A stretch of DNA of 64,000 nt from Saliphagus infecundisoli (GTDB taxonomy: Archaea; Halobacteriota; Halobacteria; Halobacteriales; Natrialbaceae), in the NCBI RefSeq assembly GCF_020177375.1, contig NZ_JAIWHV010000003.1, forward strand, positions 124,001-188,000. Reading direction: 5' to 3'. The notes under the pieces were generated by a model. That model searched no databases and was not told the origin of the DNA. It saw nothing but the letters and a program-made list of their open reading frames with translations. Numbering within the stretch: position 1 is the first letter of the stretch; the number at the start of each line of letters is the position of its first letter. A program made the position numbers and the translations under genes. Positions 3,594 through 5,360 of the stretch are shown here, piece after piece.

Positions 3594-3922
3594 TTCGACG
3601 GACGGTTCGGAACCCATACGGAAAGCACATCCTCGAAATCGGAAATCCCTCGTGTCTCGCTCACCCCCGGCAGGGAGGACCAGCCACAGTAGGCGAGAGT
3701 TCGTCCCGGACCGACATGTTCTGTCCCGCGAGAGACCCGCCCGAACGTATCAATATTCAATAAAGAAGGGCTACCACTAATCCCAAAATGTGGGCCATAG
3801 GTGAAGGACATCTCGATACACGGCCCCATATTTCGGTGCCTTGATGGACCATCAATTCAGATTAGGGCCTTAATCTAGACTAGTGGGACACATTGAAGGT
3901 CATCGACTGTGAGAGGTAATCC
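3594..3922 (+). other. Intergenic region upstream of the DUF5805/integrase pair
   Basis: No gene is seen. GC is lower than in the neighbours. It contains two nearby inverted repeats, GATGG-A-CCATC at 3843-3853 and the larger dif-like element at 3854-3881. A good Shine-Dalgarno-like gaggtaatc lies just before the ATG at 3923, so the downstream transcript probably has a leader. Confidence 0.6.
3854..3881. other. Candidate dif-like (11-6-11) recombination site or operator
   Basis: Left arm aattcagatta and right arm taatctagact surround a 6-bp centre gggcct. The inner 6 bp of each arm (AGATTA/TAATCT) are perfectly inverted, and 8 of 11 arm positions are inverted matches. Xer recombination sites share this layout: two 11-bp arms and a 6-bp spacer. 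It lies 42 bp before the DUF5805-like gene and upstream of the tyrosine integrase. The alternative is an autoregulatory operator or promoter element of that operon. Confidence 0.4.
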
Positions 3923-4318
3923 ATGAGCGACTCGGCCGAGGAATCCAGGGTGGCCGTAAAGACTCGGGTTCCCGCCTACCAAAAACAGCAATGGGTGGAG
4001 CACGCCGAGGAACTCGACATGAGCCAGAGCGAGTTCGTCCGGACGATGGTCCAGGCCGGACGAAAGGGGTTCGAGCCCGACCACGAGGAACCCCGTTCTG
4101 GGAGTCCAGACCCCCGGGGTAACGGCCTGGAAACCCGGGTCCTCGAGTTGCTCTCCGAGGGGCCCCGCTCGTGGGAGGAACTCCTCGAGGCCGCAAGCGG
4201 CGAGATCGAGGAGCGCCTCGATGAGACCCTCGAGGACCTCCAGAGCCGAGGCCGCGTTCGCTACAGCGGGCGCCACGGGGGGTACACGGTCATTGGGGGC
4301 GAGAGCGATGGCGAGTGA
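3923..4318 (+). CDS. DUF5805-like DNA-binding protein
   Basis: This 131-residue haloarchaeal protein resembles what I recall as DUF5805. The N-terminal part (VKTRVPAYQKQQWVEHAEEL, then DMSQSEFVRTMVQAG) looks like a ribbon-helix-helix DNA-binding domain. The C-terminal half (LETRVLELLSEGPRSWEELL and following) resembles a winged-helix segment that ends in a beta wing. It overlaps the integrase start by 11 bp, so the two proteins are probably translated together. A role as accessory or directionality factor, or as repressor of the recombinase, is inferred from context. The start is supported by a gaggtaatc ribosome-binding sequence. Confidence 0.75.
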   Translation: MSDSAEESRVAVKTRVPAYQKQQWVEHAEELDMSQSEFVRTMVQAGRKGFEPDHEEPRSGSPDPRGNGLETRVLELLSEGPRSWEELLEAASGEIEERLDETLEDLQSRGRVRYSGRHGGYTVIGGESDGE

Positions 4319-5360
4319 GGTGGAGACCGAACGCGAAGCCATCGAGGATCCGATCGCGTACTTCCTCGAGGACCAGCGCTATCACGGCCGGAGCGAGCGG
4401 ACGATTGCCGAACACGAGCGCGTACTCCGGGCGTTCGAGGCGTTCGTCGAGAGTGAGGAGACGCCCGGGGGACCCGTAGAATCGCCCGCCGAGGCCGGTC
4501 GTCGGGAGTGTATGGCCTGGGTCCACTCGTTGCGCGGCGACCTCGAACCGGGTACGATCGCGACCTACGCCTCCTACGTCCACCGGTTCTACGACTACAT
4601 GACCCAGGTCGGCGCCTTCGAGTCGAACCCGATGGCCCTCGTGGTCCGGGAGATGGACGAATCGATCGACACGAACCCCGCCAGACGCGAGATCTCTGTC
4701 CCGGACATGCGGGAGTTCGTCGCGGGCATCCCTCACCCGCTCGAGCGAGCAGTCGTCCTCACGTTACTGAAAACCGGCGTTCGGGTGGGTGAACTTTGCA
4801 ACCTCGACCTCCGAGATCTCTCGATGCCGGTCGAGAGCTGCGAGATGACGCTCGAGCCCCGGGTGCAACTCGATGGACGCCCGAACTCGCTGTACGTCGA
4901 TTCCGAGCCGGTTCGGGGGAAAACGGTAAACGGCGAGGAGCGGACGGCCTCGAACAAGCGTAAACGGGCGACCGTGATACCGGTAGACGACGAGCTCCGC
5001 CGAGTGCTCGAAGAATGGCTCGCGATCCGTCCCGACGCCGCCTCGCCCGCGGGGCCGCTCTTTCTCGACACCGGCGGCTCGTGGGGCCAGCGTCTCGAGC
5101 CCTCGGACATCCGCTACATGGTCGAGAGCCACGCCCGCGAGTACGGCTGGTACCAGACCGGAGGCGGCGCGGCCGAGAACGTCACACCCCACTACTTCCG
5201 GCACTTCTTCACGACTCACTTGCGGGACCGGACGGGCGACCGCGGCGTCGTGAAGTACCTCCGCGGGGACGTCGCAAGCGACGTCATCGACACCTACACC
5301 CACAACTGGGGCGATCAGGTCCGGCGAGTCTACGAACGGAACGTCTACTCGCTGCTGTGA
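4308..5360 (+). CDS. Tyrosine recombinase/integrase (XerC/D-like)
   Basis: The 350-residue product has an N-terminal SAM-like core-binding domain (about 1-110; SERTIAEHERVLRAFEAFV and YASYVHRFYDYM) and a C-terminal catalytic domain. Catalytic residues visible are Arg159 in TGVRVGEL, His295 and Arg298 in HYFRH, and Tyr330 in DTYTHNW. A Lys-rich beta-turn precedes ATVIPVD. The usual LGH motif before the tyrosine is replaced by LRGD, so the second catalytic histidine is not obvious. The ATG at 4308 lies inside the end of the DUF5805-like gene. No phage genes are nearby, which favours a resident chromosomal recombinase, possibly for dimer resolution, over a mobile-element integrase. Confidence 0.85.
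   Translation: MASEVETEREAIEDPIAYFLEDQRYHGRSERTIAEHERVLRAFEAFVESEETPGGPVESPAEAGRRECMAWVHSLRGDLEPGTIATYASYVHRFYDYMTQVGAFESNPMALVVREMDESIDTNPARREISVPDMREFVAGIPHPLERAVVLTLLKTGVRVGELCNLDLRDLSMPVESCEMTLEPRVQLDGRPNSLYVDSEPVRGKTVNGEERTASNKRKRATVIPVDDELRRVLEEWLAIRPDAASPAGPLFLDTGGSWGQRLEPSDIRYMVESHAREYGWYQTGGGAAENVTPHYFRHFFTTHLRDRTGDRGVVKYLRGDVASDVIDTYTHNWGDQVRRVYERNVYSLL

Follow-up and report, generated by a model that had tools for sequence, protein, structure and literature searches.

A conserved dif-like site beside the genes of an Xer-type recombinase and its DUF5805 partner in Halobacteriales

A 28-bp inverted repeat in Saliphagus infecundisoli, located just upstream of the overlapping genes for a DUF5805 protein and a tyrosine recombinase, is probably the core dif of a chromosomal Xer-type system of the Halobacteriales, in which the site and a single recombinase are encoded in cis. 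A cis-encoded dif is favoured over the other readings by the combination of site geometry, arm sequence, uniqueness and universality with the lack of a canonical XerA. The window, which refers here to the whole stretch of 64,000 nucleotides that was analysed, comes from a draft genome of 76 contigs within this order.

The core occupies positions 3854-3881 of the plus strand and consists of the arm AATTCAGATTA, the spacer GGGCCT and the arm TAATCTAGACT, an inverted repeat with 11-bp arms and a 6-bp spacer; it is delineated by its geometry, a site matrix, the covariance profile R1 and an arm score. Of the 11 arm positions 8 match, the inner 6 bp being perfectly inverted, and the letters read GATTA-N6-TAATC, compared with GATAA-N6-TTATC in most relatives. 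Around the core, a conserved 64-bp site (3836-3899, plus strand) is defined by the R1 match, column conservation and pair counts. It includes the outer inverted arms GGACCA (3846-3851) and TGGGAC (3884-3889), also read on the plus strand and symmetric about the core, as well as a conserved TTGAAGG on its right-hand side. A gap of 41 bases separates the core from the ATG (3923) of the DUF5805 gene (3923-4318, plus strand), which overlaps the tyrosine recombinase gene (4308-5360, plus strand). These results confirm the preliminary description, in which an 11-6-11 repeat with an inverted inner 6 bp had been reported just before the DUF5805-recombinase pair. Its statement that no phage-like genes lie nearby agrees with a comparison of six neighbouring open reading frames, the pair included, with Pfam, where the integrase domains of the recombinase were the only matches to phage families. 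The repeat by itself was rejected as evidence, since comparable repeats occur at 30 places in the window, with 8-23 in each of ten dinucleotide shuffles; its weight derives from conservation across relatives, not from rarity in the window.

Conservation was followed in 119 loci, comprising 90 loci and a further 29 from genomes without a match to profile R1. DUF5805, or its ribbon-helix-helix (RHH) part, lies upstream of the recombinase on the same strand in 118 of them, and the sole exception (L033) has a broken DUF5805 together with a second, divergent pair. Of these 118 loci, 89 have an NNTWA-N6-TWANN palindrome in the 130 bp that precede DUF5805, versus 3.8 expected from shuffles. An ungapped site matrix built on the 89 loci reaches a score of at least 10 in 78 of them, with a nearly invariant core, ATAA-(g)N4(c)-TTA, and an outer inverted pair, GNNCYA at about -22 to -16 and TRGGG at about +16 to +20 from the centre. 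Profile R1, which models the 64-bp site, matches in 221 of the 293 genomes of the order (205 of the 255 good ones) and gives no match in 72. Among the 29 loci from R1-negative genomes, several or many have diverged sites and others have no visible site; no site was seen by eye in L155 and L157, and R1 likewise failed to match the chromosomal locus of Halomarina (L229). Diverged lineages exhibit matched changes on both arms, such as TCTTA-N6-TAAGA. In an alignment of 63 sites, the covariation score of the two arms was 0.256 versus 0.182 in shuffles, with none of 500 shuffles as high, and the number of arm cells changed on both sides was likewise unreached in 500 shuffles, while the count of arm pairs altered on both sides was unremarkable, being reached in 56 of 500 shuffles. 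The two most divergent orthologues, L167 (family f11) and L168 (f9), have no dif-like core near the start and carry the short palindromes TCTAATGTTAGA and GTCTAACGTTAGAC directly before the partner gene.

The site appears to be present once per chromosome. Allowing up to 3 mismatches, the 28-mer has a single occurrence in the 76-contig draft genome of the window. The R1 search, conducted at E <= 0.05 with up to 18 candidates scored per genome, returned two matches in 12 genomes; these were rejected as extra copies, since both matches correspond to one palindrome on opposite strands, and the 12 genomes were rechecked at E <= 1 with nearly all candidates scored. A second, separate match was found in no genome of the R1 search, at whose depth of up to 18 candidates per genome a weak second copy could escape.

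The arms also resemble those of a biochemically studied archaeal dif. On the haloarchaeal arm matrix, the 28-bp dif of Pyrococcus abyssi (sequence from the methods of PMC2958812) reaches 19.1 bits, compared with a median of 19.2 and a range of 7.2-29.3 for the 78 haloarchaeal sites and 13.9 bits for the window site. The probability of such a score is 1e-5 under letter permutation and 0.0017 under palindrome-preserving permutation, and the SSV1 attP control reaches -47.5 at best.

The recombinase was assigned as Xer-like by PF00589, NCBIfam, its solved XerA and XerD relatives and conservation. It is present in 282 of the 293 genomes of the order, including all 255 complete and clean ones, and its profile matches the structures of XerA and XerD. 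All 119 recombinases carry R159, K217, H295, R298 and Y330, which provide the R, K, H-x-x-R and tyrosine nucleophile of Xer enzymes. The fifth catalytic position, placed by its spacing of 9 to the tyrosine following XerD numbering, is Asp321 (window 5268-5270), and Asp is found there in 119 of 119. This residue is unusual, as this position is occupied by His or Trp in Xer enzymes according to the available part of PMC5357621. On the XerA model NF040815 (NCBIfam), the window recombinase scores 104.1 bits, below the cut-off of 220 and comparable to other recombinases of its genome (120 and 93 bits); XerA above the cut-off was found in none of 15 haloarchaeal genomes. Near-cut-off second recombinases were observed in G055 (C1:2766321-2767169, 197 bits) and G039 (C1:905699-906550, 196 bits), which gives some genomes a further Xer candidate. 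Deletion of HVO_1422, an XerC-like gene of Haloferax volcanii that may not be the same gene, was without effect on viability, according to the available text of a review (PMC7776575).

The partner protein (PF19121) is predicted to comprise an RHH domain, a disordered linker and a winged helix. The RHH assignment draws on several weak lines. In all, 16 of 34 DUF5805 members gave weak matches to NikA-like RHH domains, and 14 of 34 to the MCM4 winged helix; the AlphaFold2 model places a disordered linker at residues 49-64; and Foldseek with this model points to RHH proteins, CopG and NikA among them, none of which matches at E <= 0.001. Among 196 sampled genomes of the phylum, 32 contained DUF5805, and each of these 32 belongs to the order of the window.

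The steady place of the core beside the start of the operon would also suit an operator and in this respect counts against dif. It is unlikely, on balance, that the palindrome is an operator and nothing else, through which DUF5805 or the recombinase would autoregulate the operon with no strand exchange at the site. In keeping with such a role, the distance from the end of the core to the extrapolated start of DUF5805 is 35-53 bp in the 78 scored loci, the stretch between the site and the ATG is partly conserved as well, and DUF5805 has the predicted RHH domain. RHH proteins often autoregulate. However, the arms match the studied dif as well as haloarchaeal sites match one another, and four genomes of a single genus (g20) have the site some 620-690 bp upstream of the recombinase and some 250 bp ahead of DUF5805, with the old leader and a short open reading frame kept in between. 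Additionally, the arm class tracks a residue of the recombinase more fully than any residue of DUF5805. Residue 35 of the recombinase is Glu in all 10 loci with TCTTA-type arms, four of which were labelled by eye, and in none of the 70 loci of the tree set with ATAA-type arms, whereas the best DUF5805 column separates the arm classes less fully (0.79 versus 1.0 for residue 35). On a recombinase tree built without residue 35, the association amounts to one well-supported contrast, at most three; the window recombinase combines Glu35 with GATTA arms, and L003, L162 and L193 have ATTA-type arms without Glu35. The association is suggestive of contact between the recombinase and the core. An operator role, which the preliminary description had named as the main alternative, may nonetheless exist alongside the dif role.

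A second conserved element was identified inside the partner gene. Codons 57-71 of DUF5805, which encode the linker left disordered in the AlphaFold2 model, display synonymous conservation far above that of the recombinase gene, the scores at codons 58, 59 and 64-66 being 2.5 to 4.0, compared with 1.03 for the 99th percentile. This element 2 (4087-4142, plus strand) is quasi-palindromic around ACCCCCGGGGT, and its motif, quasi-palindromic around ACCCC-GGGGT, attains a matrix score of at least 25 in 94 of the 119 loci. Its spacing is also kept, the distance from its centre to the core centre being 235.5-288.5 bp (median 246.5) in 70 loci. Of the 25 loci that score low in, or lack, the DUF5805 copy, 18 have a match within about 1.5 kb that was equalled in none of 200 shuffles, and 7 have no such match; eleven of the 18 relocated matches lie outside the DUF5805 gene, some of them on the far side of the site. 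According to profile R2, the best match adjoins the module in 38 of 40 genomes, and it does so in 14 of the 15 genomes outside the model, which was built with the other 25; in G065, the R2 match at the module is not the top one. Uniqueness of element 2 to the module did not hold, as weaker R2 matches occur elsewhere in the genomes. Weaker relatives of element 2 were observed near parA-like genes on plasmids (L286, L289 and L300) and in the linkers of unrelated proteins (L287, L290 and L294). The Ser codons 34, 36 and 115 of DUF5805, whose synonymous scores are high as well, were rejected as parts of element 2; these scores arise at least partly because serine has two codon boxes.

Chromosomal position was expressed relative to a marker of oriC1, the PolD small-subunit gene (PF04042). 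HVO_0001 is presumably the orc1 gene at oriC1. The PolD small-subunit gene is listed as HVO_0003 in a review table (PMC7776575), and the choice of marker fits the contigs of G154, G205, G027, G210 and G052, which start within 7 kb of it. The module lies 108.5-178.6 degrees from the marker, with a median of 160, in 42 chromosomes from 28 genera, one of the 43 genomes (G140) having been left out because its marker is on another contig; genus means depart from a uniform distribution with a Kolmogorov-Smirnov (KS) p of 1e-16. A gene neighbouring the module, within 15 kb of it in 28 of the 42 chromosomes, has a median of 159 degrees, and radA lies at a median of 13 degrees from the oriC marker, which together indicate that core-gene positions are inherited in this order. 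The terminus position was therefore weakened as independent proof: the location of the module in the 42 chromosomes fits a terminus site, is shared with the neighbour gene and may reflect inherited synteny. Haloarchaea have several origins and many genome copies per cell.

The preliminary description had also proposed an Xer dif architecture and a resident chromosome-resolution system, and had named conservation among relatives and copy number beforehand as the checks on a dif role. The architecture is borne out by the match of the arms to the studied archaeal dif, and both checks were passed, with the site kept across the order (89/118 loci, 221/293 genomes) and no genome giving a second separate match among the up to 18 candidates scored in each. 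A resident resolution system is accordingly supported by conservation, the lack of a second copy in that search, dif-like arms and a location opposite the oriC1 marker, the last of these being common to the neighbour gene.

Orientation of the module was compared in 101 loci (L172-L271 plus the window). Flanking genes are common over about 9 kb, and the module is inverted with respect to both flanks in 509 of 1061 comparable pairs. A two-state orientation labelling of the 77 loci in the main group is consistent for all 1044 pairs; 24 of the 101 loci are outside the main group, and 10 directed pairs have mixed signals. Two recombinase lineages were rejected as the source of the flipping, since the tree runs largely by genus and 6 orientation changes have to be placed on it, no fewer than 4 of them on starred branches. 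Two divergent DUF5805-recombinase pairs around one site were observed in Natrinema hispanicum (L218) and Halorussus ruber (L266), 2 of the 101 loci, and additionally in L033; in all three, the decaying pair is without the RHH half yet keeps element 2. The flips and double pairs can be read as repeated local inversion together with rare replacement by a foreign module.

Tyrosine recombinases are a typical component of mobile elements. The second, divergent pairs in L218, L266 and L033, as a sign of occasional replacement by foreign modules, would fit a mobile-element attachment site with an integrase that has been domesticated or is still mobile. Such an origin is nevertheless very improbable, given that the recombinase is found in 282 of 293 genomes with a tree largely by genus, that the module occupies the same chromosomal region in 42 chromosomes, and that the R1 search, with up to 18 candidates scored per genome, found no second site. 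The recombinase was recovered from 2 of 72,556 plasmid records, both of about 1 Mb, and viral contigs gave one relative only, which covers 39 residues. One of these records, from Natrinema thermotolerans A29 (987 kb), encodes a recombinase 98.9% identical to that of the type strain. The Halomarina PSR21 plasmid (L306, 1.16 Mb) has its own divergent recombinase, 74% identical to the chromosomal copy of that strain, and matches both the site, weakly (E 0.009), and element 2 (E 1e-5).

Although the ATAA and TTA stretches look like promoter letters and a conserved TTGAAGT precedes the ATG by about 25 bp in some of the loci, it is scarcely credible that the conserved block is mainly the promoter and leader of the operon, with the palindrome as a by-product of A+T-rich promoter sequence, since changes in the two arms are matched, the outer arms mirror each other around the core centre and palindromy is not required of promoters.

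As a probable dif, the haloarchaeal site can be placed among other Xer systems. Like XerA/dif of the Thermococcales (Cortez 2010, PMC2958812), it is a 28-bp, 11-6-11 site with an ATAA-N6-TTAT core, is found once per chromosome, far from the origin, and is served by a single recombinase. In the available text of the same source, the Thermococcales dif lies apart from xerA, whereas the haloarchaeal site adjoins the recombinase gene; further differences from the Thermococcales are the score of the haloarchaeal recombinase below the XerA cut-off, its Asp at the fifth catalytic position and the DUF5805 partner, and the outer arms and element 2 are haloarchaeal additions. The XerA/dif of Sulfolobales, as described there, is similar in that dif is close to xerA on multi-origin chromosomes, but a conserved 13-bp sequence lies on one side only in Sulfolobales, while symmetric arms lie on both sides in haloarchaea, where, unlike in Sulfolobales, an RHH-winged-helix gene stands between the site and the recombinase. 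The main text of PMC2958812 contains no word beginning with 'halo'. A single recombinase with the site beside its gene is also characteristic of XerS/difSL and XerH/difH (PMC5357621). The central region of difSL is 11 bp, compared with the 6-bp spacer of the haloarchaeal site, and for XerS/difSL and XerH/difH no partner gene like DUF5805 is mentioned in the available part of PMC5357621. Finally, element 2 provides conserved DNA within a few hundred base pairs of the Xer-like core, as in ColE1 cer, where an Xer core is combined with accessory DNA, ArgR and PepA (PMC2409434). The accessory DNA of cer, which is found within about 180 bp in the accessible text of that source and is the closest analogy for element 2, belongs to a plasmid site with known accessory proteins, whereas the haloarchaeal site is chromosomal and its element 2, about 245 bp from the core centre, is known from sequence.

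If the site acts as a dif, recombination there would begin with recombinase monomers binding the two sites on a dimeric chromosome; they would cleave where the arms meet the 6-bp spacer and then exchange strands, giving rise to chromosome monomers. Less certainly, DUF5805 might bind the outer arms, element 2 or both, could shape the synapse or set its direction, and might repress the operon whose upstream region the site occupies. A more speculative extension, possible but somewhat doubtful, is a self-contained directional Xer system free of FtsK, in which DUF5805 would bridge the symmetric arms and the linker-codon element 2 as a topological filter, so that dimers are resolved rather than formed.

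The role of the XerC/D-like enzymes of Haloferax volcanii in termination remained to be determined according to the available text of a 2020 review (PMC7776575), and an archaeal equivalent of the bacterial factor that pushes Xer/dif to resolution had not been found according to that of a 2021 review (PMC8371274). The open-access literature, with subscription journals mostly outside the coverage, yielded neither a described haloarchaeal dif nor a paper on DUF5805. The question of how haloarchaea separate chromosome dimers now has a named candidate site, with a candidate enzyme, partner protein and accessory DNA element, all of them order-wide. If the directional-filter reading proved true, the DUF5805 system would be the archaeal directionality factor that is missing in the account of the 2021 review (PMC8371274).
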